Shown one piece after another: positions 13,487 to 62,258 of a DNA stretch of 64,000 nt. Numbering within the stretch: position 1 is the first letter of the stretch; each line of letters starts with the position of its first letter. Below the pieces are notes generated by a model that saw only the letters and a program-made list of their open reading frames with translations, made no database searches and was not told the origin of the DNA. The translations under genes and the position numbers were made by a program. This DNA is from a virus: positions 1 to 64,000 of the IMG/VR virus record IMGVR_UViG_3300009314_000003; one strand, 5' to 3'.

Positions 13487-13562
13487 GCTGATGTAGCTCA
13501 ACTGGTAGAGCAGTTGATTTGTAATCAGCGGGTCGGGGGTTCGATTCCTCCCATCGGCTCCA
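13487..13562 (+). tRNA. tRNA-Thr (anticodon UGU)
   Basis: A full 76-nt cloverleaf. Acceptor GCTGATG/CATCGGC has one G-U pair. The D-arm contains AGCTCAACTGGTAGAGC. The anticodon stem GTTGA/TCAGC carries the loop TTTGTAA (anticodon TGT). The T-arm is GGGGGTTCGATTCCTCC, and CCA is encoded at the 3' end. It would read ACA codons. A CTTGCC/GGCAAG hairpin follows. Confidence 0.95.
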
Positions 13563-35293: not shown

Positions 35294-36175
35294 CTGTTAA
35301 TCTCGGCCGCGCAGGAGATTGTACTCGCCGACGGTTCTTTTCACAAGGCCGGCGACTTAATTGGTTGTGGTCCTGTTGAGGGTTTGGGTTGGTTGGTTTC
35401 TTCTCCGCGAAAGCAAATGATAGAGATTTATCCTGTGGAAGAGGGTTCATCCGCTCGACTTTGTGGTCTTGTGAGCTCAAATGGCCGCAGTATCTTATGT
35501 GGGGAGGAGACAGAACTCTTAGGGGCCAAGGGGTGGATATCCTTCGCCGAGCATGTTAGGCAATATAAAAGATGTCGATGGTTAAAAATATATCCCTATC
35601 TCATTAACAGAATTAATAACTATGGGAGGGATGAGCGTGGTCAGGAGTGGGTGGATGCCTTTGTTGCCTCTCTGGTTGAGCTGTCACGTCGTAGTCCGCA
35701 TATGGGCGAGCGTGGTACTATCACAATTCCTTCCTACCTTGGTAAATTAAATGAAGCATCCCTTAATCGTTTTCTGGGGGCCTTATTTAACGCATTCTCC
35801 AAAAGTAAGAGAACTGCCTTTATAAGAAGGATTGATTATGAGAGTCAGCAGCGATTATTTAGCTTATTTACGAGGACTGGCTCCTACAAAACAACCAGCC
35901 GGGGTAAAAGCAGGATTTATGAGGTTGGTATACCTGGCGCTAATTTACATAAGAGGCCTGATGAAAACACCAACAACAGAGGAGGTTGGTGGCCATCACC
36001 AAATTTATTAATCCGTACAAGTAATATTGATGATTCTGTAGTTACTTGTTGTATAAACCGCTATAGGATAGTTGATCGTGATATATATGAGACCCTTGTT
36101 GAGGTCCGCACCCAAATTGGTAATTTCATTGATAAGAGCTTCATATGTCGGACCGAAAAGATCAATCCAGCCTAG
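35294..36175 (+). CDS. Free-standing Hint/intein-like protein, start uncertain (263-294 aa)
   Basis: The frame is open from 35225 but has no ATG, GTG or TTG until a TTG at 35384. Yet the codons before that TTG encode EIVLADGSFHKAGDLI, which resembles intein block A. A CTG at 35294 with GGAAGG 7 nt before it is a possible start. Later GRSILCGEETELLGAKGWISF resembles block B, and YETLVEVRTQIGNFI resembles block F. The C-terminus ends in FICRTEKINPA with no terminal His-Asn plus Ser/Thr/Cys, so self-splicing is unlikely. The middle about 120 residues may be a degenerate endonuclease. It overlaps TerL by 31 nt. Confidence 0.5.
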   Translation: MLISAAQEIVLADGSFHKAGDLIGCGPVEGLGWLVSSPRKQMIEIYPVEEGSSARLCGLVSSNGRSILCGEETELLGAKGWISFAEHVRQYKRCRWLKIYPYLINRINNYGRDERGQEWVDAFVASLVELSRRSPHMGERGTITIPSYLGKLNEASLNRFLGALFNAFSKSKRTAFIRRIDYESQQRLFSLFTRTGSYKTTSRGKSRIYEVGIPGANLHKRPDENTNNRGGWWPSPNLLIRTSNIDDSVVTCCINRYRIVDRDIYETLVEVRTQIGNFIDKSFICRTEKINPA

Positions 36176-38427
36176 GTAGTTTCTCTCCAGACGAATTCCT
36201 GGAGGCCCAGACCATTATAGACCCTACGCTCTTTGCTGAATCTTACCTCCGTAATCCAGCCGATCCAACTGAGCCTCTCGTCTTACGGCCTTATCAGAGG
36301 ACTATTCTTAGGGACCAACACCAGCATCGTCTTCTGCGACTAGGAAGGCGCGTTGGAAAATCCGTAACCTTAGCTATTGAGGCGATTTGGAAAGCCTTCA
36401 CTCATAATTATCGTCAGGTTTTGGTTGTAGCCGCCTACGAGAACCAGCTGGATATCATATTTAACCTAATGGGTAATATGATATATGACGCCCCAAAGAT
36501 AAAGGACTCCATTAAGAATGTTCGGAAGAAACCACACGAGATTTGGTTTGAGAATGGTTCCAGTATTATCGGTAATGTTGGTAATTCCTCAGTTCGCGGT
36601 AAATGTCTCCCCGCAGGAACAAAGGTATGGATGGCAGGCGGATCTTGGAAATCAGTTGAGGAAATTAAAGCTGGTGAACGGGTTCGTTCCTATGACCTGG
36701 ATGATCTTTGTATGGTGACTAGAAAGGTGACGGCTATACACGATAATGGTAAGAAGCTTATCTATCAACTAAATACCACCTCCAGTCGGATTCTAAAGGC
36801 TACTGCTGAGCACAAGATCTTTATCTTTGGAAAGGGTTTTATAGAATTAGAGGATATCAAGACTTGGAAAACTGACCAGAATATGTCTCACTTTGTGGGG
36901 GTGGTAGATATAAATGGTGGACTTAATTGGAGCCGAGCATATAATGTTGAGGAGATGGGGGAGGAGAGGACTTATGACCTTACTGTGGAAGAGGAACACA
37001 ACTTCATTGTTATGACACCACCCCCAGAAGAGTTAGGGGGTTTTCGCATATCTGGAGTAGCTAATGGAGGTTTCCTTGTACATAACTCTGCGCACGACCT
37101 TATTATTGATGAGGGTGACTATATACCGGAGAATATAATCATTGAGGATATCTGGCCCATATCTACCTCCCACAAGGATACGCAGGTAATATTTTCTTCT
37201 ACACCCTCCGGCCGTCGGGGTTTCTTCTTTAACCTGAGTCGCAACAAGGACGATCCCAGGTTTGACTTCCACGAACATCACATCCCCAGCTCATCTAGCC
37301 CGGAATGGACTACGGAACAGGAAGCACTAGCCCGTTCCATCGCGGATGAGAGTCAATACAATAGGGAGTATTGTGCCCTCTTTAGTGATGCGACTGAAGG
37401 CGTCTTCCGGAACAAGTTTATTGAGCCGGCTCTATTTGTTTATGACTATCCTGACCTACAATTTAATCCGGAGAACTATTATACCATGGGGGTTGACTGG
37501 AATGAGGCCGCCACTGGGGTACATGTAGTTATCCTGGAGCATGTTAATAAGCCGGTGGAAATGGTCCCGTACAGGTCTGGCCTTATCGGAGAACCTAAGA
37601 AAGTGGGAAAGGTTCTTCGCCTCTTCAAGGCAGATAGGGTTGATGCCCTGGAATATACCAACGTAGTGGCAGTTGATTTTATCCTATCTCTTCTACATAA
37701 GTACAGGATTGACTATGCCTGTTTTGATCATGGCCACGGGCATACCAATTGGGAGCTCTTACGATTATCCATACAGAGGGGTATCTCTCCTACCGGTATG
37801 AGGTGTACCGGCCTTACCAGGATGCTGGATAGGATGGAGGTAGTTGATTTTGGCGGCTCTAGTGAGGTTATTGATCCAACTACCAATAGTACCAGTAAGG
37901 TGCGGACTAAGAATTTCCTTGTTCGTAATGGAGTTCGAGTTTTGGAGGGTGGTAGAATTATTATTCCTGCTGTTGATGTCTTGGGCAACCCAATAGAACT
38001 TAACGAGAAACGACTTGTGGGCCAGATGCGTGCTTATACTGTGGAACGTGTAGGGGCCCGGGGGGAGGTTTATTCCAAAGGAAACGATCATGTCTTAGAT
38101 AGTTGGATGTTAGCTGTTCATGCTTACCTCACTAATCATGATGATTTCATGGCCTGGGATTATGCTATGGAAAGTGCAGGGGTAGAAGATTCTACTCTCA
38201 TTCCCCATGCAATAGCCAGACGTAATGTACTTAGTCCTGTAAGTAGTAAGAAGACATCTTTGGACCCAGAGGTATTTCAAGCAGGCGAGTATACAGTCAA
38301 TCATTATGGGCATTGGCCTAAGAAAGGTGAACCGCCGGAGCGGGAAGATAAGGGGGATCCGCTTCTCCCCAAACGTCGTGGGTCCCGGGGAGATAGACAC
38401 CACACTCCAAGGAGAACAGATATATAA
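36145..38427 (+). CDS. terL: Terminase large subunit, interrupted by a mini-intein
   Basis: DNA-packaging motor ATPase and nuclease. Walker A LGRRVGKS (residues 66-73), Walker B LIIDE (319-323), and the RNase H-like nuclease with acidic residues at D451 (GVDWNEA), D528 (FDHGHGH) and D648/D652 (DHVLDSW). A 161-residue intein (154-314) sits between RGK and SAHD, just before Walker B; removing it leaves a 599-residue terminase of normal size. Overlaps the Hint-like gene and ends in TAATG with the next gene. Until the intein is removed, ATPase motifs are separated, so splicing should control activity. Confidence 0.95.
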   Translation: MSDRKDQSSLGSFSPDEFLEAQTIIDPTLFAESYLRNPADPTEPLVLRPYQRTILRDQHQHRLLRLGRRVGKSVTLAIEAIWKAFTHNYRQVLVVAAYENQLDIIFNLMGNMIYDAPKIKDSIKNVRKKPHEIWFENGSSIIGNVGNSSVRGKCLPAGTKVWMAGGSWKSVEEIKAGERVRSYDLDDLCMVTRKVTAIHDNGKKLIYQLNTTSSRILKATAEHKIFIFGKGFIELEDIKTWKTDQNMSHFVGVVDINGGLNWSRAYNVEEMGEERTYDLTVEEEHNFIVMTPPPEELGGFRISGVANGGFLVHNSAHDLIIDEGDYIPENIIIEDIWPISTSHKDTQVIFSSTPSGRRGFFFNLSRNKDDPRFDFHEHHIPSSSSPEWTTEQEALARSIADESQYNREYCALFSDATEGVFRNKFIEPALFVYDYPDLQFNPENYYTMGVDWNEAATGVHVVILEHVNKPVEMVPYRSGLIGEPKKVGKVLRLFKADRVDALEYTNVVAVDFILSLLHKYRIDYACFDHGHGHTNWELLRLSIQRGISPTGMRCTGLTRMLDRMEVVDFGGSSEVIDPTTNSTSKVRTKNFLVRNGVRVLEGGRIIIPAVDVLGNPIELNEKRLVGQMRAYTVERVGARGEVYSKGNDHVLDSWMLAVHAYLTNHDDFMAWDYAMESAGVEDSTLIPHAIARRNVLSPVSSKKTSLDPEVFQAGEYTVNHYGHWPKKGEPPEREDKGDPLLPKRRGSRGDRHHTPRRTDI
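36604..37086 (+). other. Mini-intein in terminase (161 aa)
   Basis: Begins with Cys (CLPAGTKVWMAGG, block A), has block B TAEHKIFIFGKGF with the TxxH motif, block F RTYDLTVEEEHNFIV, and block G GGFLVHN followed by Ser as first extein residue. All residues needed for class 1 splicing are present: Cys1, His in block B, penultimate His, terminal Asn, Ser+1. There is no endonuclease domain, so it cannot home on its own. Confidence 0.93.
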
Positions 38428-51168: not shown

Positions 51169-53826
51169 ATGGCACTTCCTAAAATCACAAGTGTTTTGAC
51201 AGATGGAAATCTGGAACGGGCCGAGGGTAGTGGTAATCGTAGTAAACATATTACCATTATAGGTACAGCTGTAGATGGGCCAATGTATACATCGGTGACG
51301 ATCCGAGATCTGGATCACGCTGAGAGCATTTTTGGTACCTTCAATAGAGGAACTCTTCTCCGCGCCATGAATGAGGCATGGCAAGCCCAGATGGATAGCG
51401 GTAGAACTCCGTACATCTCTGGTGTGCGTGTAGGTGGTCTGGTTGCTTCGAGGGCTGATCTTGAGATTGAGAATAATAACTCAGAAGTAGCTCTAAAGCT
51501 TGAGGCTCTTTACCACGGTAGTCGATATAATGACATCGTTATCACCGAGGATAGTTCTAATGATGCTATCAAGATATACAACCCCGTATCTGGTATTTGG
51601 TCAACCTTCAAATATAACTGGACAAATTCCAACGCGGGAGGCGTAGATGCGCATAACGTCGTTGAACTGGCAAATGCCATCAATGCTGATAGTAATCTGA
51701 ATGGTATTTTGGTTGCATCGGTTCCTGAGATGATTGCTACGTTTGAGGTATTTGCTAAAAGCGGCGACGCTTTTGTGTCTTCCTCAAATAGTAAAACCAC
51801 TATCACCCTTAATGGGGCCGGTAGTGGCGATCTAAATGCAGACACTCTTTACCTGGACGGGTCATCGAGTACCACTACCATAGACGAAGTTCATAGACCA
51901 ATTGTAAGAGTGTCAAAGGTGTATGCTATTACTGATGGTGGTATCGAGGTTCTTGAGGGCGGAAGTTCTCAGGCTACGACAGTACATCTACCTCTGGCGG
52001 GCCGGAGTGATACTCGTTTTGATACCCTTCTCAATGTTATTGATGAGAACGGGACATTAGGCGAGCTAGCTCAAACCCCGGATGATTTGGCCATAACTTC
52101 AGAAGGGTATTTCAAAGTCCGGAATCAGGGCATTGGTATACTTGATCTTGATGTTGGTAGTATTACCTTCGATGCTCCCCTTGCTATTGCCGATGCCGAT
52201 ACTTCAAGTAATTTAAGTGGTACAGCATCAGCCTATACTACGGCTAAAAATTATGGTGCTGGTTACACTGCAAGCAATCTTGGAGCAGAATTCCAAGGCT
52301 TAACTAGATGGACAGTAGCAGGGGAAGAAAGTTCCTCTGGTACTTATCCTATCAAAGTTGAGTGGAAGGATCCCTCTGCAGGACCTAATGCGTGGCAGGC
52401 CGCCAATCTAGGCGACACAGCCTGGGCCCTTAGTTGGGCAAACGATCAAGCGACACTTACGTTCCCAAGCAGTACACCGGACAGGTATGACGGAATGGAG
52501 ATTAGAATCTCTTTCGATTCATGTATTGGAGTGTTCAATGAGAAGTCAACCCTGGCCGGGGTTGAGGAGTCTTCATCTTCCTTCCTGGATTACTTTGTGC
52601 GAGGTCAGGAAATCATCTTTGGTAAAGCCCTACCACATAACTTGGCAGTTCGTTACGCCAGGGTACAATACTATGAGCTCGGCTCCACAATATCTCTAGA
52701 AGATGCTGAGGCCGGCAAATTTAGTATTACTGGTGTAGGTATACAACCAGGTCCTGGGGGCGGTGCTCTTGGAACTAGCGATAGTACTATCGGCTTTGAT
52801 GTTATATACGCTCAGGATGAATTCAGTTTAAGTAGCTCTCAATCTCTTCTAGGTGGTACCTCCGGTACTGGTTTATCGGATAGTACTCTCTACAGTGAGC
52901 TAAAGGAGGCCTATGATAATCTGGATGCATTTGATTTTGACCTCTTAATCACACCTGGTGCATATATTGACTCCACAAAAGGTGGTTACAATGTACTAAC
53001 AGGCGCTCCAGAAGAGGTGAACGCAGGATTCCATGAGCTTATGGATGAGTTTCTCTCCGGTTATAATGGAGATGCCCGTGGTATTATGGGTTTCAAACCC
53101 ATAGTAGGTACTGGTATCAATAATACCATCAGCAGGAAAGATGTTGCCAGTCGTGTGTCCAAACTAACTGTAGTTGATTACAGTGATAATCTTCGTGCGG
53201 CTAACTTTCTGGCTAACTTCGACTCCAAATATATGATGGCTATTGATCTAGAACCTATCGTTATAGCTAAAGGCTCCCGTTATACAACTACGGGCGAAGC
53301 AATAGTTGCTGGTCACCTGGCAATTCTAGAGCCAGAAGAAGCCCCTTATCTTAGCTCCTTAACAGGTACACAGGGTCTTCGTTATCGTTACTCTAGTAAA
53401 GTAGCTGATGGCCGTAGTCAACTTGATGCACTAAGCGACATGAGAATAATAGGGGCCAGGATCGATGGTTACAGGGCGCGGCTCGTTGATGGACCGTCCC
53501 TTGCTGAACCTGGATCTGATTACGAACGCTGGACAACCTCCAGCATCGTGGCTGCTGTTATGAAAGATGTTCGCGCTGTTGCCGAACCATTCCTCGGACA
53601 TGTCTCTAATTTGCCTACACTACAGGCACTGGAGACTACTCTCCGAAGTAGACTTAATCAGCGAGTACCAAAGTCACTTTCCGCGTATTCCTTTAAGATC
53701 AAGTCTTCTCCGGCACAGAAGGTTGTTGGCATCATCGAAATCCCACTGACATTGGTACCTGTGTTTGAAATCCGTCAGATAAAGGTTACAGTTGTACTTA
53801 AGGCTGACGCCTCGACTCTGGCGTAA
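51169..53826 (+). CDS. Tail sheath protein (885 aa)
   Basis: Forms the contractile outer tube. The C-terminal 250 residues match the sheath family: ADGRSQLDALSDMRIIGAR, ALETTLRSRLNQ, and the closing strand FEIRQIKVTVVLKA used to interlock subunits. At 885 residues it is longer than typical sheaths (about 400-700), with an expanded beta-rich insertion in the first half, likely exposed. Ends just before a clear terminator. Confidence 0.9.
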   Translation: MALPKITSVLTDGNLERAEGSGNRSKHITIIGTAVDGPMYTSVTIRDLDHAESIFGTFNRGTLLRAMNEAWQAQMDSGRTPYISGVRVGGLVASRADLEIENNNSEVALKLEALYHGSRYNDIVITEDSSNDAIKIYNPVSGIWSTFKYNWTNSNAGGVDAHNVVELANAINADSNLNGILVASVPEMIATFEVFAKSGDAFVSSSNSKTTITLNGAGSGDLNADTLYLDGSSSTTTIDEVHRPIVRVSKVYAITDGGIEVLEGGSSQATTVHLPLAGRSDTRFDTLLNVIDENGTLGELAQTPDDLAITSEGYFKVRNQGIGILDLDVGSITFDAPLAIADADTSSNLSGTASAYTTAKNYGAGYTASNLGAEFQGLTRWTVAGEESSSGTYPIKVEWKDPSAGPNAWQAANLGDTAWALSWANDQATLTFPSSTPDRYDGMEIRISFDSCIGVFNEKSTLAGVEESSSSFLDYFVRGQEIIFGKALPHNLAVRYARVQYYELGSTISLEDAEAGKFSITGVGIQPGPGGGALGTSDSTIGFDVIYAQDEFSLSSSQSLLGGTSGTGLSDSTLYSELKEAYDNLDAFDFDLLITPGAYIDSTKGGYNVLTGAPEEVNAGFHELMDEFLSGYNGDARGIMGFKPIVGTGINNTISRKDVASRVSKLTVVDYSDNLRAANFLANFDSKYMMAIDLEPIVIAKGSRYTTTGEAIVAGHLAILEPEEAPYLSSLTGTQGLRYRYSSKVADGRSQLDALSDMRIIGARIDGYRARLVDGPSLAEPGSDYERWTTSSIVAAVMKDVRAVAEPFLGHVSNLPTLQALETTLRSRLNQRVPKSLSAYSFKIKSSPAQKVVGIIEIPLTLVPVFEIRQIKVTVVLKADASTLA

Positions 53827-54030: not shown

Positions 54031-57000
54031 ATGAGTAATGTGTTTGATGTAAGTACAAACGATGTTGCTAAGACATTTACGACCTTCTCTGGTTCGGACA
54101 TCAAAGCGGTATTCGGAAATGTGGAGATAGGCAATCTGCAAGGCCTTTCACTCTCGGTAAACCGTGAGGTGAGGCCGGTGTTTGTGATGGGTAAATAGAT
54201 GATTTGCCCTTTCCTGCTAATATCGGGGAAATCTAAGGGCCAGTGGGCCTATGGCAATCCCGAGGCAAGCCCATTATGTGGCAGCCGTAGAGACTTGATC
54301 AGCAATGATCAGGCTCCGTTGAGAAAGACCCTAATACAGGGTAACGGAAGCAATACGCAGGAGCTGTCTAAATGAACGATCAAACACATCAGCTATTGAA
54401 TGGTAGTCTGTTGGGTGACGGTTACTTGAGCAAGTGCCAATATCATACCGCCAGTGATGGATACACACGCTGGCATAATAGTCGTTATGAGGAAGATCAC
54501 AAAGAAGATGACAAGTCCTACCTTGAGTGGAAGGCAACAATCATGAGTCAGGACTTTGATGTGAAGTGGGTATATAAAGAGGCACGCACGTTGGGCATTA
54601 AAGGACATGAGGCGGACTGTGGTCCTGTTTATCGAATTTACACCAATACGTCTACTGAACTGTCCGATCTACGGCAGATATGGTACCCAGATGGCCAGAA
54701 GATAATACCGGACTATCTGGATGACTTTGACTCCTCGACACTGACTTCCTGGTACTATGATGATGGCACCTATCATGTTCACCGTCAGATAATAGAGATC
54801 AGCACCGATAGTTTCACCCTTGAGGACGTCAAACGCCTCCAGGGATGGCTTAGAGACCGGTGGAACATTGAGGCTGCCATCAAGCGCAAACCAGGACACG
54901 CTATTAGGCGGTACTACCTTCATCTTAACAGGGAAGCCTCCAAGAGGCTCCTCAGTCTAGTCGAGGATGTACCAAGTATGGAACGCAAGAAGCCTATGGG
55001 CTGGGATGGAGTCTTTGATCGTAGTGAGACACCATCCAACTTTCATAGGCGGCTGAACGCTAGGCTGTCCTCAGGTGAGAAGCGGAAGCTAATAGTCCTC
55101 GACCTACAAGAGTTCTATGAACAGACTGGGCCGTGGGATGGTTTCCCAGCCGTAAAGTATCACTACACTGAGGATTGCATAAGTCCAACCCTGGCCATAC
55201 GCCACTTCGGATCATTCAAGGTGGCTCTCGAGTCGGCCAGACTGCCAACTAACTATATTTAGACAGCAAGAGATAGTCCATACCTACCGAAAGGTTAGGA
55301 TGAATTGAAATCAGATGCCGTGAGTTACTCGAAGGGTAAATAGATGTTTGCCCTTGTAAAAGCTAGCTCGTTCGAGGAAACCTACAGGGCCGTGAGGCGC
55401 CAAGGCAATCTCGATGCAAAGACGGTCCCGGGGACTTGGTTACCGGGATGCAGAGGCGGTAGAGACTGCACGCTAGCCAGCTGGGCCTCCAAGGGTCAAA
55501 CAGCTGAAGGAACAGTCCAGGCCCATGGGAAACCATGGAGAATTACTGAAACGCGGAATCGCAGGGTTGAGATGAATTGGCTCTGCTTAAATCCGGCTTA
55601 TATCGGTGAACGCCGAGAGGCTAATACCGAGGGGTATCCGTACCTGTGATGCAAACAATAGGAACTAACATAAATGTCTAGTGGAAAGTGGAAGAAGTAC
55701 AGATCCTGTCCTATTACTAGAGACGGGGTCAGAGTACTGTATGGGACTTTGCTAGGAGACGGATCCTTATTTAAGGATCCAGAGTGTGTGAATTATAGAT
55801 TTTCAGTAACACACTCTAATCGTCACTCAGATTATATACAGTGGAAACAGTCTATACTTGGACTTCCATCGAGTATTTGGAATGATGAGAAAAGAAACCT
55901 AGTAAAACTTCAGTCACTAGCCTGTACCGAGCTTACTTCTATACATACCAGCTTCTACAATGGAGCTGTTAAACGAATTCCACGTGACATTGACTTAACT
56001 GAACTGCTGTCACCTTTATCGATAGCTACCTGGTTCATGGATGATGGTAGCTACGATGTTGAGGAGGCAGTAGTTATATCCGCGTATGCTTTCTGCGAAG
56101 AAGATATGCTTCGTGTAGCAAAATACATGGATCACGTTTATGGGATTAAGATCAATGTCTGGAGTGATAATCGTGTTTACATACGCAAGGAATCACATGA
56201 CAGGTTCTTTAGTATTATCACTCACTACGTAAGTGAGGTTCCTTCTATGCATTATAAGGTACGCACTTGGATAAAACCAGGTGTCTCCCAGGTGAAACTC
56301 CTGGGGTATGACGAGCCCTGTAGAGACTATCCCACAGCCGTGGGATCATGGGATGGATTTATCCGCCCATGAAACGCCGGACTTGAACTAATAGAATATG
56401 AACTGGACACAAGAAGAAACTGAGATCCTGAGAGATAATTACTCCTGGAATCCAAGGACAGCTATGTTACTTCCTAACAGGTCTGCACATCAGGTAATAA
56501 AGAAGGCTAATAATATAGGCCTGAAGAGAGATGGGCGAGGTAGGATAGATACTCTAAGGGCTGACTATTTTGATCATTGGACCCCTAACATGACATACAT
56601 CCTAGGATTCTTCACAGCGGATGGAAACATATATGCACCACCAACCCGGGTTGATGGGGTTAGTGTTTATAAGATCACATTTGCCCAAAGTGACCCATAC
56701 ATACTAGAACTAGTATGTGATGAGTTGGGTATCTCAAGAGGGTATATTTATGGACAGCAAGGGCTTAATGCCTTACCTCAGGGCGGGTACCTGAATATGA
56801 TACATCCGATGTATAGGGTAATGTTTACCAGTAAGTATATGGTAGAGAGATTGAAGGAGCTTGGCTTGTCTGAGCGTAAATCAACACAACTCAAGAAAGT
56901 ATCCGTACCTAAGAAGTTCTTCGCTCACTTCTTGAGGGGCTACTTTGATGGAGATGGTTGTCTTCAGATATCCAATAACACCACACCAAGTATCACATTT

Positions 57001-60000
57001 ACTGGTGGATCGAGGCAGTTTCTTAAATCAATCGAGGCCCGAATCAGTCGTTATTGGGATCTCCCAGGTGGCAGACTAAGGCCCAGGAAAAGAAACAAGG
57101 TCTGGGATCTGCGGTATCGTAAGGCTACTTCTCTCGAGATCTTGAAGAGAATGTATGAGGGCCATCCAGATATTCTATGCTTACTGACTAAGTACAACAA
57201 ATATGCGGGTGTTATAGGTGATGATGTAATTGATATACCAGAAGTATCATACAATTACCGAGTCTATGACACTGGCACACAAGTTCAAGAAGATATAGTC
57301 CAGGAATAGAAGATAACGTAAGTTATTGATAATTCAGCACTTATATTGACCATGTTTGACCGCCAAGCCCTACACGACATCATGCGGAGTGCTCGCTATG
57401 TAGCCAAACCAGATGATTGGGCAGGGTCGGCGGGTGTTTCTCGTGCTTTAGGCGATGCCTCAGATGTAGGTAGTGACTACACCCTGGAGTCTCCATCATA
57501 TAGTGACCAGATTCCACCGTTCGATATTACACTCGTCGGTAAACCTAAATAAGAGATGAGTAATCTTAAATACGATAAAGAACAGTTAGTATCTGAATCT
57601 CTTATTGAACAGCCGCTCTCAGAAGCGATTCTGAGTGAAACACCGGGTGAATTCAGTGGATCCCTAAGTACCAGTCAAATCTGGGATATGGCAACACTGA
57701 GCCAAGCCACGCTGGGCTTTGATAGCGTGGAAGGTGCAACGACTACATCTCTGAGTCCCAACAATAACGAGATGCACGAGCTCCCGGCACCCCTTCGGGG
57801 TGATGATATAGTCTGTGCTTCAGGGAAACCTGAAGAAGTAGCGGATAAAGAGCCGCTATGGTAACAATACAGGTTAACGAGTTTGGGTCAGCGACAACAA
57901 TGCGAATACATGGAGTTCACCTCATTTCAGAGGGAACTGGTGTGTCGGTTGACAATCAGCCGCTTTCCCAAGAGATTGGGATTGACAAACTGGGTGAATT
58001 CGGAGGAAGCCTAAGTGCTATTGCATAAGGTAACTCCGAGCCAAGCCGTACTGGGCTTAGATAGTACGGAAGGTGTAGAGACTAGCTTGAATCATATAAT
58101 AATAGTTCACCAAAGTGTGTAACGAAAATGAATAAAGACAAACGTAGCATACTCTTAGGTATGTGTATAGGAGATGGTTACATAGGTGTCAGTACAGACA
58201 AACGGTGGAATACCAAATCCTACGTACTTAGGCTATGTCACTCAGTGAAGCAGAAAGCATATCTAGAGCATAAAACCGAGCTCCTCCATTCTGCTTTAGG
58301 TGGCAAGAAACCTAGAATCGTTGAGTATAACAATAATGGATACCCAGGTGTGAAGTGTAGCAAGACAAATAAGTACTTTAAGGTGCTTAGAGATTGGTTG
58401 TACAAGGATGGGGAAAAGGTTGTTACCCGTAGAATCCTTGATATGCTTACTCCACAAGGTATCGCAATATGGCATATGGATGATGGTAGTTTGTATACTA
58501 AACGCCGCAACGGAAAGGTTCACGCTTGGGAGTTATGTACCAGCACATATGTAAGCTGGGATGAAAACCAAGTAATAGTGGACTATTTTCGTGATGTCCA
58601 TGGAATACGCTTTACAATAGTCAAGGGAAAAGGAAAGTACAGGATTCGCTGTGGTACAAAAGAGGCAAAGAAGTTTATTGAGATCGTCAAGCCATTTATA
58701 ATACCATCAATGTTGTACAAAGTCCGAATGATCTCTGACAATAATGATTCAAGCCAAGAGCGCCCAGCACCCCACGTGGGTGATGATATAGTCCGGACTC
58801 CAATGAAAGTTGGAGAGATAAGGTTTAAACGGCCTTATGATAACAAGTCGTGATGACAATGTCCAAGAGGCGACACAACTGCCTCTCTTCTCGAGTAATT
58901 GAGATGCCTAAACCAGGCTTATATCAGGGGAGGCTAAGTCCTACGGGATATGCTAATCCTGAGGGGTTCACGCCCTGCAGAGACTCATCCACTATGGATG
59001 GATCCGGAGTGCTTTGTCAGCCGGATAATACGCCTGGCTCCCACTTTATGTGGGATGATGAGATAGTCCATACCTACCGAAAGAGTAGGAGTAAATGCAC
59101 AAATGACGTTTGTGGCTTTACCCAAGACGGGCTGGGTCACATTAAACCGTGCTTAATCGGGGAACCCTTACTGGGGAATCCCGAGGGGTGTTTCGTCCCG
59201 GTTACTGCCGGGAGTCTGACAAGCCCTGTAGAGACTGAATAGTATGAAACTATGGACTAACAAAGAAGTTGAGATCCTTCACGAGAACTATAGCTGGAAT
59301 CCGCGTATTGATGAACTATTACCGGATCGTCCCAGACGTCAGATTGTGAGTAAGGCAAACCGAGAGGGCCTGAAAGTAATGGGACGCGGACGTGCATGGG
59401 GCTTAAAGGTAGACTTCTTTGACCATTGGAGTGAGGAGATGGCTTATGTTTATGGCCTGATCGTTGCTGATGGGTGTATAATGAAGCGTAAGGATAGTGG
59501 TATAATGGTTATTGATATAACGCTAAATGATGAAGACCACATTAGGCGATTAGCCAATTTGTTGGGCGTACCAGAGCGTGTTTATAGTAACAGTGATGGT
59601 ACATATCATCTGAGGTTTGTTAGCAACTACATAGCCAAAAGACTGATGAAGCTTAAGGTTCCGTTTCGTAAGTCTCTTGTCCTTGGTAAGCTTCCTGTCC
59701 CTAAGAAGTTCTTCTCTCACTTCCTACGTGGTTACTTTGATGGAGATGGATCCTTCAGTATTAATGCTAAGGGCCGAGCTCCTATGCTTAGTTTCACATC
59801 AGGTTCATACAATTTCCTTCGATGGATTCAAGCAAAGTTAAAGAGGTATTATGGCTTTCCAATGGGTCGTCTTCGTAATAAGAAAGGCACCAATACATGG
59901 AATGTCTGGTATAGGAAATCTGCATCTATATTCCTAATGGCAATAATGTATAGGGATAAGGGTGACCTCTTTCTTCGCAGGAAGTATAACAGATACATTA

Positions 60001-60206
60001 GTTATCTATCCGATCAAGGACATACTATTCGAGAAAAGGAATTCATTTCCCTTCTAAACGCACGGCTACCTCAGAAAGAGGTAGAAGAGATAGTCCATTC
60101 TCTTGAACAAGAGAAGCAGCAAGTAACATGGTGGAAACCAGTTGAATCCGACGCGGACAAACTAGATATCGATGATATTTCAGGTACGATAGTTGGATTA
60201 CAATAG
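54031..60206 (+). CDS. Tail tube protein gene split into eight exons by seven group I introns
   Basis: The tube forms the inner channel of the contractile tail. Exons as read: 54031-54192, 55308-55337, 55549-55567, 57338-57540, 57873-57949, 58851-about 58881, 59106-59117 and 60120-60206. They sum to about 621 nt (206 codons plus stop). The joined protein restores the tube pattern: REVRPVFVMG, then SDAVSYSKG, KRGIAGSLIL, TMFDRQAL, PPFDITLVG, NEFGSATTMRI, LISEGTGVSVDD, TFVA. Every junction keeps frame. Exons 2, 3, 6 and 7 are only about 30, 19, 31 and 12 nt. The 5' site of intron 6 is uncertain by a few nt. Unspliced, translation stops after 55 codons. Confidence 0.85.
54193..55307 (+). ncRNA. 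Group I intron 1 (about 1115 nt) with endonuclease ORF
   Basis: The 5' exon ends in GGGT, pairing with the internal guide GCCC at about 54204-54208 (U-G at the splice site). The P7 strands are TAGAGACTT (near 54288-54296) and AGATAGTCC (55271-55279). The P9 hairpin is CCTAC-CGAAAG-GTTAGG. The intron ends in G before AAATCAGAT. The endonuclease ORF lies between R and S (P8 loop). Confidence 0.85.
54372..55262 (+). CDS. LAGLIDADG homing endonuclease in intron 1 (296 aa)
   Basis: Two LAGLIDADG-type helices: LLNGSLLGDGYL near residue 8 and LTSWYYDDGTY near 134, each with the catalytic acidic residue. A C-terminal region (about 215-296; FYEQTGPWDGFPAVKYHY) is probably an extra DNA-binding part. 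It would cut intronless tube genes at the exon 1/exon 2 junction. It ends just before the S element. Confidence 0.88.
   Translation: MNDQTHQLLNGSLLGDGYLSKCQYHTASDGYTRWHNSRYEEDHKEDDKSYLEWKATIMSQDFDVKWVYKEARTLGIKGHEADCGPVYRIYTNTSTELSDLRQIWYPDGQKIIPDYLDDFDSSTLTSWYYDDGTYHVHRQIIEISTDSFTLEDVKRLQGWLRDRWNIEAAIKRKPGHAIRRYYLHLNREASKRLLSLVEDVPSMERKKPMGWDGVFDRSETPSNFHRRLNARLSSGEKRKLIVLDLQEFYEQTGPWDGFPAVKYHYTEDCISPTLAIRHFGSFKVALESARLPTNYI
55338..55548 (+). ncRNA. Group I intron 2 (about 211 nt), no ORF
   Basis: The exon end AAGGGT pairs with the guide GCCCTT (55351-55356) over 6 bp with a terminal U-G. R is GTAGAGACTGC (55459-55469) and S is AACAGTCC (55511-55518). P9 is CCATGG-GAAA-CCATGG. The intron ends in G before AAACGCGGA. 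It is a minimal ribozyme without an endonuclease. Confidence 0.88.
55674..56372 (+). CDS. LAGLIDADG homing endonuclease in intron 3, first (232 aa)
   Basis: Motifs LYGTLLGDGSL and ATWFMDDGSY mark the two LAGLIDADG helices. The ORF continues through the R element of the intron core, so the last about 18 codons overlap ribozyme sequence. It is the same class as the intron 1 and intron 5 proteins but sits at a different place in the intron. Confidence 0.85.
   Translation: MSSGKWKKYRSCPITRDGVRVLYGTLLGDGSLFKDPECVNYRFSVTHSNRHSDYIQWKQSILGLPSSIWNDEKRNLVKLQSLACTELTSIHTSFYNGAVKRIPRDIDLTELLSPLSIATWFMDDGSYDVEEAVVISAYAFCEEDMLRVAKYMDHVYGIKINVWSDNRVYIRKESHDRFFSIITHYVSEVPSMHYKVRTWIKPGVSQVKLLGYDEPCRDYPTAVGSWDGFIRP
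56398..57309 (+). CDS. LAGLIDADG homing endonuclease in intron 3, second (303 aa)
   Basis: Residues 1-50 form a Myb/SANT-like helical region (WTQEETEILRDNYSWNPR). The nuclease motifs are ILGFFTADGNIY and HFLRGYFDGDGCL. It is a paralogue of the intron 7 protein (same N-terminal opening and FLRGYFDGDG). The ORF end covers the S element. Confidence 0.88.
   Translation: MNWTQEETEILRDNYSWNPRTAMLLPNRSAHQVIKKANNIGLKRDGRGRIDTLRADYFDHWTPNMTYILGFFTADGNIYAPPTRVDGVSVYKITFAQSDPYILELVCDELGISRGYIYGQQGLNALPQGGYLNMIHPMYRVMFTSKYMVERLKELGLSERKSTQLKKVSVPKKFFAHFLRGYFDGDGCLQISNNTTPSITFTGGSRQFLKSIEARISRYWDLPGGRLRPRKRNKVWDLRYRKATSLEILKRMYEGHPDILCLLTKYNKYAGVIGDDVIDIPEVSYNYRVYDTGTQVQEDIVQE
57541..57872 (+). ncRNA. 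Group I intron 4 (about 332 nt), no endonuclease
   Basis: The exon ends GTCGGT. A guide GCCG lies near 57614, giving a large P1 loop (so the P1 call is weaker). R is CAACGACTAC (about 57738-57747), S is GATATAGTCTG (57804-57814), and P8 has CACCCCTTCGGGGTG. It ends CAG before GTTAACGAG. A 102-codon open frame inside has no protein features and is judged non-coding. Confidence 0.75.
57950..58850 (+). ncRNA. Group I intron 5 (about 901 nt) with endonuclease ORF
   Basis: The exon ends TGTCGGT with the guide GCCG at about 57959. R is TGTAGAGACTAG (58074-58085), S is GATATAGTCCGG (58784-58795), and P9 is CTCCAATGAAAGTTGGAG. It ends TCG before TGATGACAA. The core resembles intron 4 closely (GCCAAGCC...CTGGGCT...GGAAGGTG in both), and both insert after GTCGGT. 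Confidence 0.82.
58128..58853 (+). CDS. LAGLIDADG homing endonuclease in intron 5 (241 aa)
   Basis: Motifs LLGMCIGDGYIG (N-terminal) and IAIWHMDDGSLY (middle) are the two active helices. The reading frame runs through S, and its TGA stop uses the first bases of exon 6. Relative of the intron 1 and first intron 3 proteins. Confidence 0.88.
   Translation: MNKDKRSILLGMCIGDGYIGVSTDKRWNTKSYVLRLCHSVKQKAYLEHKTELLHSALGGKKPRIVEYNNNGYPGVKCSKTNKYFKVLRDWLYKDGEKVVTRRILDMLTPQGIAIWHMDDGSLYTKRRNGKVHAWELCTSTYVSWDENQVIVDYFRDVHGIRFTIVKGKGKYRIRCGTKEAKKFIEIVKPFIIPSMLYKVRMISDNNDSSQERPAPHVGDDIVRTPMKVGEIRFKRPYDNKS
58882..59105 (+). ncRNA. Group I intron 6 (about 224 nt), no ORF; 5' site uncertain
   Basis: R is CTGCAGAGACTC (about 58975-58986), S is GAGATAGTCC (59060-59069), and P9 is CCTAC-CGAAAG-AGTAGG. 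The S-to-P9 stretch is almost identical to that of intron 1 (55271-55299). It ends in G before ACGTTTGTG. The 5' boundary is inferred from protein continuity (EATQ then TFVA) rather than a clear P1. Confidence 0.7.
59118..60119 (+). ncRNA. Group I intron 7 (about 1002 nt) with endonuclease ORF
   Basis: The 5' exon TGTGGCT (59111-59117) pairs over 7 bp with the guide GGTCACA (59135-59141), ending in U-G. R is CTGTAGAGACTG (59226-59237), S is AGAGATAGTCC (60086-60096), and P9 is TTCTCTT-GAAC-AAGAGAA. It ends CAG before CAAGTAACA. Confidence 0.85.
59244..60206 (+). CDS. LAGLIDADG homing endonuclease in intron 7, in frame with last exon (320 aa)
   Basis: Paralogue of the second intron 3 protein: Myb-like start (WTNKEVEILHENYSWNPR), then VYGLIVADGCIM and HFLRGYFDGDGSF. 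There is no stop between the endonuclease and exon 8, so the ORF runs through S and into the tube C-terminus (residues 293-320 are tube sequence). Confidence 0.85.
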   Translation: MKLWTNKEVEILHENYSWNPRIDELLPDRPRRQIVSKANREGLKVMGRGRAWGLKVDFFDHWSEEMAYVYGLIVADGCIMKRKDSGIMVIDITLNDEDHIRRLANLLGVPERVYSNSDGTYHLRFVSNYIAKRLMKLKVPFRKSLVLGKLPVPKKFFSHFLRGYFDGDGSFSINAKGRAPMLSFTSGSYNFLRWIQAKLKRYYGFPMGRLRNKKGTNTWNVWYRKSASIFLMAIMYRDKGDLFLRRKYNRYISYLSDQGHTIREKEFISLLNARLPQKEVEEIVHSLEQEKQQVTWWKPVESDADKLDIDDISGTIVGLQ

Positions 60207-60246: not shown

Positions 60247-61155
60247 ATGCCTTACGGACCATTTCAGTTTGGTAGTTTAGAATCGGGGCAAACCTTCTCC
60301 GGGGTAGATATTATTGCTACCCTACGGGGACCAGATATACCCGGAGCTATTGCTATGACAAACCTAAACACCGTAAGTTACTCTATACACAGGGAGAAGG
60401 CACCCGTCCGTCGACTCGGGCGGGTGTACTCCCAAGGCTACACCAGAGGCCCCCGCACAATCGCCGGCAGTATGGTGTGGATAAACTTTAATAAGGCAGC
60501 TCTCTGGGAACTAATTAGAACGGCCCCTGGCGAGGAATCGCCTGTTCACTCCATCATGACAGATCAGCTCCCCCCTTTCCATATGGGCTTTACCTTTGTC
60601 AATGAGAATGGGCTGTCAGCCTTTATGAATCTCTTTGGCATTGAGATTGTGGACGAGGGAATGGTGCTGGGTACGGATGAGGCTTACCTAGAAACGACCA
60701 TGCAATATGTAGCAGAGGATATTGACCTTATGTACCCAGGAGATGATATTAACGAGAAGTGGGATGAGCTTATGCGGCAAGGTATAGACAAACAACACCA
60801 TGAAATCTTTAATAGTAAAGAGGAAGCCAACCAGTTTGCTGCTGAGTTAAGGGGTAAAGGAATAAGAATAAATGTTGGGAAAATAATGAGTGGAGAAGAT
60901 AAGGATAAGTGGAAGGTGTACTTTTCCTTAACAACAGGTGAAGAGATGTTCAACGTCTTAGGTCCATCAAATAAAGACTTTGTTCGTATGATGAAGGCAG
61001 CAGGTCTACTTGATTTTGATCCTTGGGGAGAGAGTCTTGATAAGAAGGATCTTGTATACTATGACGCCCATGGAAATCCACACTACGATACAACCCATAC
61101 ATATCAACACTATACACCACCACCACCTGAACCTGAAAATGGAGATGATGGTTAA
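60247..61155 (+). CDS. Tail tube paralogue with C-terminal extension (302 aa)
   Basis: Residues 1-160 match the tube pattern: SYSIHREKAPVRRLGRVYSQ, GYTRGPRTIAGSMVW, NKAALWEL, then LPPFHMGFTFVNENG and FGIEIVDEGM. The rest includes NSKEEANQFAAELRGKGIR, which resembles a SPOR-like repeat. Intron-free although it has the same conserved motif that is interrupted in the upstream gene. Probably a tail tip, initiator or minor tube ring. Confidence 0.75.
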   Translation: MPYGPFQFGSLESGQTFSGVDIIATLRGPDIPGAIAMTNLNTVSYSIHREKAPVRRLGRVYSQGYTRGPRTIAGSMVWINFNKAALWELIRTAPGEESPVHSIMTDQLPPFHMGFTFVNENGLSAFMNLFGIEIVDEGMVLGTDEAYLETTMQYVAEDIDLMYPGDDINEKWDELMRQGIDKQHHEIFNSKEEANQFAAELRGKGIRINVGKIMSGEDKDKWKVYFSLTTGEEMFNVLGPSNKDFVRMMKAAGLLDFDPWGESLDKKDLVYYDAHGNPHYDTTHTYQHYTPPPPEPENGDDG

Positions 61156-62258
61156 TGTACTATAGCGGAACACAAGCTACAGCTTGGGTGGCCAGTAAAA
61201 AAGGTAGCCGGCGGCTTACATTATTTGAATTAGATGTAGCCTCCTTCCAATTCAATGCCTCTGTAGTTAAGATGCCACTCTATGGCTACCGCTCCAAGAC
61301 TTTTGATGCCGTAGCTGTTGGTGAAAAGCTGATTCAAGGCCAGATGATGATTAACTTTAAGGAAGCAGATCAACTGGAGCTTCTTGAGGAGGAGATAACG
61401 TTTGAACTTACCCTCGAATATCAGCGTGGGCTGGGCTCGGACTTCACCCAATATATCTTTGAGGATGTACACTTCTCCACCCTCTCCCATGGGGCCACAC
61501 CAACCGGGAATCCAATTATAGAGGCCGTTGACTTCATAGCTAAAGACTTCCGGGCCAAGACTACTGCGCGTCCACCTATTGCTATTCCTGAGGATGAAAC
61601 GAGCGTGGGAGAAGATTCTTTAGGTGGTGTTCCACCCCCGGAAGATATACCTTTAGATGTATTTGTAGATAAAATTAAAGCAGAAGCCTACCAACTTATT
61701 GTAGGTTCTATATCAACCCACGATCGGTTTTACATACCCTATAGTAGTATAACACGCAACTCACCTTTACTTACTAGTTATATAACTGACTATACAGTGA
61801 AGGCTGGAGATTTGGTATGTTGTCGGCCTTCATGTGGGGTTGAGACAAGAGGAGGCGATTTCCGGATAACGGTGGGCTCTAGGGTGAAGCCCCGCTGGGC
61901 TTTTCAAATTAAACAGGCTGTAGAGGCATCCATTTCGCCGGAGGGGACTTCCTCCTACATTGGCCCATTTAGTAGTAAAGAGGCCGCCGAAAGTTTCTAT
62001 GAATTCTATCCTATCTTTGGAAATGGTATGTGGATATGGGGTACTCGGGATGGTCCGATGGTGATCATAAAGGGAAATACTAGATTCCCTGATTTTGTTG
62101 TGTTTAAAGATTCGCAGGAGGAATCATTGGGGGTCATAAGTAATCAGCTGGGGGAGATTATGTATATAAACTCCGATGATATAGACGACTTACTCCATAA
62201 TAGGACGACTAAAGTAGAAATACTTAATCACTTATTTGCCCACCTTGTCCAATCATAG
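61155..62258 (+). CDS. Second tail-tube-like protein (367 aa)
   Basis: Residues 1-140 follow the same fold pattern at lower similarity (PLYGYRSKTFDAVAVGEKLI, GQMMINFKEADQLELL). Later residues include a loop with two Cys (VCCRPSCG) and a second alpha/beta part (GPFSSKEAAESFYEFYPIFG) like that of the preceding paralogue. Its ATG overlaps the previous stop. Confidence 0.65.
   Translation: MYYSGTQATAWVASKKGSRRLTLFELDVASFQFNASVVKMPLYGYRSKTFDAVAVGEKLIQGQMMINFKEADQLELLEEEITFELTLEYQRGLGSDFTQYIFEDVHFSTLSHGATPTGNPIIEAVDFIAKDFRAKTTARPPIAIPEDETSVGEDSLGGVPPPEDIPLDVFVDKIKAEAYQLIVGSISTHDRFYIPYSSITRNSPLLTSYITDYTVKAGDLVCCRPSCGVETRGGDFRITVGSRVKPRWAFQIKQAVEASISPEGTSSYIGPFSSKEAAESFYEFYPIFGNGMWIWGTRDGPMVIIKGNTRFPDFVVFKDSQEESLGVISNQLGEIMYINSDDIDDLLHNRTTKVEILNHLFAHLVQS

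Follow-up and report, generated by a model that had tools for sequence, protein, structure and literature searches.

The tail tube gene of Staphylococcus phage Twort, orf142, lies directly after the tail sheath gene and carries group I introns near its 3′ end; in its record it is joined from four pieces, and three matches to the Rfam group I intron model (RF00028) are found there. According to the accessible parts of the published work, this gene turned out to encode the tail tube, and its introns were shown by others to splice, with exon skipping observed. Here we describe an interrupted gene in a 64,000-nt stretch (hereafter the window) of the 147,988-bp IMG/VR virus record IMGVR_UViG_3300009314_000003, which we read with high confidence as a single tail tube gene with seven group I introns, whose exons would rejoin into the tube protein. 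Twort has three introns against seven here, and splicing has been seen in Twort, whereas the window is known from sequence alone.

Other interrupted genes have been reported, as far as the accessible portions of the published accounts extend. In the Zeta group of crAss-like phages, the major capsid protein (MCP) gene of OLRF01000054 is a structural gene broken by group I introns into five fragments; three of its four gaps contain group I domains, whereas the gene described here comprises eight fragments with a core in each gap. The same genomes also carry inteins, and their RNA polymerase genes are disrupted to a still greater degree, by stops and frameshifts whose nature is unexplained. Genes of the Bastillevirinae (relatives of SPO1 and Bastille) contain two or, at most, three introns each, mostly of type IA, together with homing endonucleases, the host genes being those for polymerase, terminase and reductase. 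Group I introns with RNA-supported splicing likewise split genes of Jug phages and Cluster J mycobacteriophages, some of them coding for capsid and tail proteins; Jug genomes hold 18.5 introns on average, spread over their genes (terL lies in two to three fragments), and Cluster J mycobacteriophages have one intron per gene. The mitochondrial cox1 of Agaricus bisporus is a single gene packed with group I introns, but it is an organelle gene; the morphogenesis genes of mirusviruses are also intron-packed, but with spliceosomal introns and in viruses of eukaryotes.

Within the literature searched, whose coverage was partial and left subscription papers outside, no phage gene with seven group I introns was recognised; the highest numbers met were three introns, or four gaps in the crAss-like gene. 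The element is of a known kind, and its number and arrangement of introns were not met in that literature. A first-pass annotation of this DNA had called seven introns in one short structural gene apparently exceptional, which holds within this partial coverage. It named T4 td, SPO1 and Twort-like phages as precedents, and had missed that the three-intron gene of Twort is itself a tail tube gene.

The interrupted gene spans positions 54031-60206 (6,176 nt), downstream of the tail sheath gene, and consists of eight coding pieces and seven gaps (Table 1). The exons sum to 621 nt and the introns to 5,555 nt, or 90% of the gene; the computed coordinates and total reproduce the eight exons of about 621 nt in 6.2 kb outlined in the first-pass annotation. 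Exon boundaries were set by the P1 guides, the terminal G of each intron and intact relatives. An exon 8 start at 60132 (TGG) was rejected, as relatives read FVA, four residues and then WW, which places the start at 60117; this start also yields a 4-bp P10. An exon 6 ending in GAGGCGA, one residue longer, was likewise rejected, as relatives have two residues between E and M/F/L-T.

When joined, the exons encode a 206-amino-acid (aa) protein (MSNVFDVST...IVGLQ). A profile search identified 478 tube relatives in viral contigs, of which the best 80, ranked by contiguous match, were kept and the other 398 not included; because of this ranking, the set is biased towards intact genes. The tube frame, extracted from all 80 loci, yielded 48 different proteins of 188-234 aa; the remaining 32 each duplicated one of them. 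In a codon alignment with 11 intact relatives, the joined sequence continued in frame and without a gap across all seven junctions, which bears out the restored tail tube frame proposed earlier. Its identity was 66.5% with the nearest relative (L010, over 200 aa), 55.0% with L011 and 40.3-56.0% with the others of the 11.

Over the whole join, the differences fell mostly at third codon positions. Codon-position counts were used because dN/dS by the NG86 method was undefined for three of the four pairs. The differences at first, second and third positions numbered 56/43/127 against L010 (200 codons) and 34/27/84 against L210, an interrupted locus described below (134 codons). Exon 3 (0/0/5) and exon 7 (0/0/4) differ from L010 at third positions only, and the counts were 9/8/42 in exon 1, 21/18/38 in exon 4, 5/4/18 in exon 5 and 1/1/2 in exon 6.

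The identity of the gene as a tail tube gene is consistent with its surroundings. The order sheath, tube, paralogue is kept in L010 and in the isolated phage KLEB27-3; in MTATph1 the tube gene follows the sheath gene and one extra gene separates it from the paralogue, and in ME3 the tube gene likewise follows the sheath gene. The joined protein matched PHROG 9206 (6.6e-43), a family labelled 'major head protein', and a KLEB27-3 protein annotated as tail tube; these queries, and the profile alignment used for the relatives and the record, were made with an earlier protein version five residues shorter. A fold model was made of the protein of L010, not of the spliced window protein, and its ten best Foldseek matches were contractile injection or tail entries or Hcp (E 2.8e-4 to 1e-3), with top chains from PVC and AFP entries, phage 812 neck entries, a Haloferax tailed virus and Hcp proteins.

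The tube genes of MTATph1 and ME3 (L008 6118-6600 and 7022-7546; L009 5986-6672) are annotated as major head or major structural proteins; these annotations, like the PHROG 9206 label, look like misnamed tail tubes. The tube profile also matched 11 bacterial genome contigs (L220-L230), including Alicyclobacillus shizuokensis and Paenibacillus sp. TCA20, which may be prophages or phage contigs binned with their hosts. Exon 1 as a query found no match in bacterial genome contigs, and exon 4 recovered 80 loci, one being the same phage.

Each of the seven gaps contains the strands of P3, P4, P7 and P8 in group I order and spacing (P3-P4-P7-P3′-P8-P7′). P7 is formed by GACT/AGTC in all seven, with a fifth pair that is A-U in introns 3, 4 and 5 and G-C in intron 2, and every intron ends in G; both features agree with the first-pass annotation, which had noted a P7-forming R/S pair in each gap and a terminal G throughout. 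Subgroup IA is usual in phages and has extra helices, P7.1/P7.2, between P7 and P3′. We read these helices by eye in introns 1, 3, 4, 5 and 6; they are absent in intron 2, and in intron 7 an endonuclease gene lies in this interval.

To search for cores, we used RF00028 and two hold-out models, R1 (built from introns 4 and 5) and R2 (introns 6 and 7). The hold-out models were limited to two introns because MAFFT alignments of seven, four or three cores misplaced P4, and their E-values are rough because calibration was short. Across both strands of the window, R1 gave six matches at E ≤ 10, all in the tube gene (introns 4, 5, 6, 1 and 2); among the introns outside its training set, it recovered intron 6 (E 4e-7), part of intron 1 (3.1e-4) and intron 2 (0.055). 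R2 gave 12 matches in the window, of which 11 lay in the tube gene and touched all seven introns, the twelfth having an E-value of 9.8. These included intron 1 in two pieces (3.1e-4, 8.2e-4), intron 5 (0.002, 0.15), intron 4 (0.0052) and the full length of intron 2 (0.0054). Neither model matched the 80 intact relatives (1.23 Mb) at E ≤ 1. At its gathering score, RF00028 found one of the seven introns (intron 4); at E ≤ 5 it added introns 6, 5 and 7, below the gathering cut-off (Table 1). Over the whole 148-kb record, the matches of RF00028 (five), R1 (four) and R2 (four at E ≤ 1) were confined to the tube gene.

Counted from the splice site, the consecutive P1 pairs with the intron's own guide number 4, 6, 7, 4, 4, 5 and 7 for introns 1-7, and the P10 pairs 6, 5, 2, 0, 4, 2 and 4. 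A U·G pair stands at the 5′ splice site of six introns (1-5 and 7, each preceded by U; intron 6 is preceded by G). An exon/guide P1 had been considered recognisable in all but possibly intron 6, and that intron proved to have a 5-bp P1 with G-C at the splice site.

A second interrupted tube gene provided a comparison. With exon 1 alone as query, 17 loci were recovered, and of the 10 examined by tblastn nine were uninterrupted and one (L210; IMGVR_UViG_3300002231_000721) was interrupted by a different set of introns. L210 has no intron at site 1, a 266-nt intron at site 2 (RF00028 20.6 bits, below the cut-off), a 251-nt intron at site 3 (RF00028 68.8 bits; R1 E 1.2e-7) and, at site 4, the start of an insert that runs off the contig. 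This insert encodes an HNH_repeat endonuclease (PF18780, 1.7e-26), and no ribozyme core was found in the portion on the contig. Joined, the L210 exons keep the reading frame over 135 codons, and exon 3 there also measures 19 nt. At site 2, the exon/guide pairing is AAGGGU/GCCCUU in the window and AGAGGU/GCCUCU in L210, so that two pairs are changed on both sides; because wobbles still let each exon pair with the other's guide at six of seven positions, this change is support and not proof. Over 28 nt (22/28), the start of the L210 endonuclease gene matches the start of the 102-aa open reading frame (ORF) in window intron 4, so that this ORF resembles the remains of an endonuclease gene; it had no Pfam match itself.

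L210 also bears on the possibility of an assembly artefact or metagenome chimera, for which the record offers some ground, being an assembled environmental contig without end repeats. A second IMG/VR record (L006, 107,589 bp), which may not be an independent sample, is nonetheless identical across the tube gene, and L210, a different phage, is interrupted at three of the same sites, which leaves an artefact with a negligible probability. Over 20,655 nt, the window and L006 differ at 11 positions, all within 31 bases (61416-61446) of the ORF at 61155-62258, which suggests that a very short segment of this tail-cluster gene has been replaced.

Several observations weigh against a tube gene with seven spliced introns. 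We infer self-splicing from the DNA sequence, and the helix strands were first picked by eye, so that independent support for the cores comes from the R1 and R2 searches. Of the seven introns, only intron 4 exceeds the RF00028 cut-off, and introns 1-3 escape this model even at E ≤ 5; as a check of the region it speaks for introns 4-7. Searched alone with this model, intron 1 gave a partial 13-bit match and intron 2 no match; four of the seven introns are broken up by large genes. R2 matches intron 3 weakly, in two pieces (E 0.046 and 0.22), no U·G pair is present in intron 6, and intron 4 lacks a P10. Exons 2 (5/2/4) and 8 (15/10/14) have no third-position bias against L010. The L010 fold model has a pLDDT of 59.6, and a second fold with 29 sequences brought no improvement (59.7). 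Comparison of the joined protein with tube families yielded the 478 relatives, PHROG 9206 and the KLEB27-3 tail tube, but no Protein Data Bank (PDB) sequence matches the family, and comparing its profile with Herelleviridae tubes gave no significant result (probability 1.4%). We still favor one tube gene with seven introns because of the gapless junctions, the place after the sheath gene, the third-position bias, the cores and the interruptions of L210.

Some of these points concern single introns, and one or two gaps, mainly introns 3 and 6, might not be independently splicing group I introns or might have other boundaries. The missing U·G pair of intron 6 and the weak, two-piece matches of intron 3 fit this idea. 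Intron 6 is nevertheless matched by both Rfam and, strongly, R1, and in intron 3 the core is complete and in order and P1 extends over 7 bp. Exactly at site 3, L210 has a strongly matching group I intron, and the junctions of introns 3 and 6 are gapless, so that we regard such a reduction of the intron count as unlikely.

The unbiased exons 2 and 8, together with the indirect case for splicing, would also fit a decaying pseudogene swamped by mobile elements, with the paralogue at 60247-61155 serving as the tail tube; the paralogue is intact and belongs to the same PHROG family. In KLEB27-3, MTATph1 and L010, however, tube gene and paralogue lie close together and both are intact, so the paralogue is no replacement. 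The overall third-position bias, complete in exons 3 and 7, the full core kept in every intron and the frame kept in L210 likewise make decay very improbable. An intact tube gene elsewhere, which the first-pass annotation had raised as a danger to its claim, was not found: at E ≤ 10 the tube profile matched only pieces of this gene and the paralogue, a result limited to the sequence of the 148-kb record because that record is linear and perhaps incomplete.

Four of the introns contain five genes for predicted LAGLIDADG endonucleases, all above the Pfam cut-off. They represent two families and are inserted at different places in the fold (Table 1); H3b and H7 share 40.5% aa identity. The H7 frame passes P3′, P8, P7′, P9 and exon 8 and has its stop codon in common with the tube, and the H5 stop codon is formed by the first three bases of exon 6. 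All three PF03161 matches of the record lie in the tube gene, as do three of its ten PF14528 matches, the other seven falling in two long frames with intein domains; HNH (PF01844) had no match in the record. In viral contigs, H7 as a query found the same phage only, and H7 with H3b found the same phage and two distant loci without tube matches.

Table 1. Parts of the interrupted tail tube gene and its neighbors, in window coordinates.
Feature	Coordinates	Strand	Length (nt)	Remarks
Tail sheath gene	51169..53826	+		upstream; phrog_16991 5.3e-35
Tube exon 1	54031..54192	+	162	codons 1-54; 3′ end GATGGGT
Intron 1	54193..55307	+	1115	P1 GGGU/GCCC; LAGLIDADG gene in P8 loop
H1, LAGLIDADG_2 homing endonuclease gene	54372..55262	+		L8 of intron 1; PF03161 1.4e-23
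Tube exon 2	55308..55337	+	30	KSDAVSYSKG
Intron 2	55338..55548	+	211	no endonuclease gene; P7 GACUG/CAGUC
Tube exon 3	55549..55567	+	19	KRGIAG+1
Intron 3	55568..57337	+	1770	two endonuclease genes, one each in L6 and L8
H3a, LAGLIDADG_2 gene	55674..56372	+		between P4′ and P7 of intron 3, read as L6; PF03161 7.6e-29
H3b, LAGLIDADG_3/1 gene	56398..57309	+		L8 of intron 3; PF14528 4.1e-10
Tube exon 4	57338..57540	+	203	tube profile match
Intron 4	57541..57872	+	332	RF00028 77.3 bits, above gathering
102-aa ORF filling intron 4	57556..57864	+		looks like endonuclease remnant
Tube exon 5	57873..57949	+	77	
Intron 5	57950..58850	+	901	RF00028 37.1 bits
H5, LAGLIDADG_2 gene	58128..58853	+		between P7 and P3′ of intron 5; PF03161 2e-30
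Tube exon 6	58851..58870	+	20	least certain 5′ splice site at its 3′ end
Intron 6	58871..59097	+	227	no endonuclease gene; P1 without U·G; RF00028 40.3 bits
Tube exon 7	59098..59117	+	20	
Intron 7	59118..60116	+	999	P1 7 bp, P10 4 bp (CAGC/GCUG); RF00028 29.5 bits
H7, LAGLIDADG_3/1 gene	59244..60206	+		between P7 and P3′ of intron 7, reaching into exon 8; PF14528 2.7e-15
Tube exon 8	60117..60206	+	90	QQVTWWKPV...stop
Uninterrupted tube paralogue	60247..61155	+		downstream; phrog_9206 4.2e-25

The two long frames with intein domains lie outside the window, at 66749-74428 (+ strand, 4405 aa) and 140680-143037 (- strand, 1397 aa). Several intein-like stretches lie in them, and together they hold seven of the record's eight PF14890 (Intein_splicing) matches. 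The terminase large subunit gene (36145-38427) contains a small intein (PF14890 E 1.4e-10, residues 169-289), and the phage seems to carry inteins in number as well as introns. One tRNA gene was found at 13487-13559 (Rfam, 64.8 bits).

The introns of the tube gene are partly related to one another. Introns 4 and 5 share about 71% nt identity in two stretches of 136 and 93 nt (blastn); both of their sites end in GUCGGU and pair with each other's guides (4 pairs), and the hexamer GTCGGT occurs in the 621-nt coding sequence only at these two sites. Introns 1 and 2 have a common guide, at the sites GATGGGT^AAA and GAAGGGT^AAA. Sites 1-3 all end in GGGU and mutually accept guides (4-7 consecutive pairs), and site 2 is the sole site that pairs longer with a foreign guide (7 pairs with guide 1) than with its own (6). 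Near their 3′ ends, introns 1 and 6 have a 31-nt stretch in common at 94%, and introns 3 and 7, which carry sister endonucleases, share a 63-nt stretch at 84%.

Transcription of the gene would give one long RNA carrying seven group I ribozymes. Each ribozyme would pair the end of the upstream exon with its internal guide (P1), make its cut with a guanosine cofactor at the U·G pair or, in intron 6, at G-C, and then join the exons, leaving a 621-nt message for the 206-aa tube protein; unspliced RNA could express the endonucleases. Alternatively, all seven introns may be genuine while splicing departs from a simple sequence, with common guides leading to exon skipping and several tube variants. 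The cross-pairing of sites 1-3 and of sites 4 and 5, and the better fit of site 2 with guide 1, would allow this; exon 2, being 30 nt long, is dispensable for the frame, and exon skipping is known in Twort orf142 and, in the accessible part of the literature, in SIOphi. Apart from site 2, however, no site pairs longer with a foreign guide than with its own, it is the full-length product that is conserved, and the single loss of exon 3, 4, 5, 6 or 7 (19, 203, 77, 20 and 20 nt) would break the frame. Skipping is a possibility to which we give the smaller share of our belief, next to splicing of all seven introns in order.

The introns may be mobile elements that built up in one conserved gene through homing and through copying to similar sites within it. 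The LAGLIDADG genes and the pattern of presence and absence agree with homing into alleles that lack the introns, and copying within the gene is suggested because related intron pairs sit at matching 5′ sites. Reverse splicing and relaxed endonuclease cutting are both candidate routes for such copying. A 2014 review, in the part accessible, found no direct evidence for mobility by reverse splicing, with rDNA as the best circumstantial case. The kinship of introns 4 and 5 at the only GTCGGT sites, and the common guide of introns 1 and 2, lead us to suggest, tentatively, that the set grew partly inside the gene at sites chosen by the RNA guides and not by DNA cutting, through reverse splicing followed by reverse transcription or recombination.

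A further parallel is offered by Twort. When six further loci were searched with R2 (E ≤ 1), the sole match was at the Twort tail tube locus, to its first intron (E 0.0039). In our own reading, two similar introns of Twort are each preceded by the same GCAT and are separated by a very small exon, and in a hand alignment Twort introns 2 and 3 lie near, not at, sites 6 and 7. The tube sequences of Twort and the window have no significant similarity and do not align significantly.

Tube genes are generally highly expressed. Seven introns within 621 nt of coding sequence, with exons as short as 19-30 nt, would test the accuracy of serial self-splicing in a major virion gene, and a search relying on the Rfam cut-off overlooks all but one of them. 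With its related introns at matching sites, and alongside L210 and an intact close relative, the gene makes the spread of introns to new sites open to direct experiment in a protein gene. If copying guided by RNA did occur, which we put forward only tentatively, tail tube genes would be a recurrent refuge for intron clusters, as in Twort, this phage and L210, and common guides could let exon 2 be skipped in frame, so that a second isoform of the tube is made.

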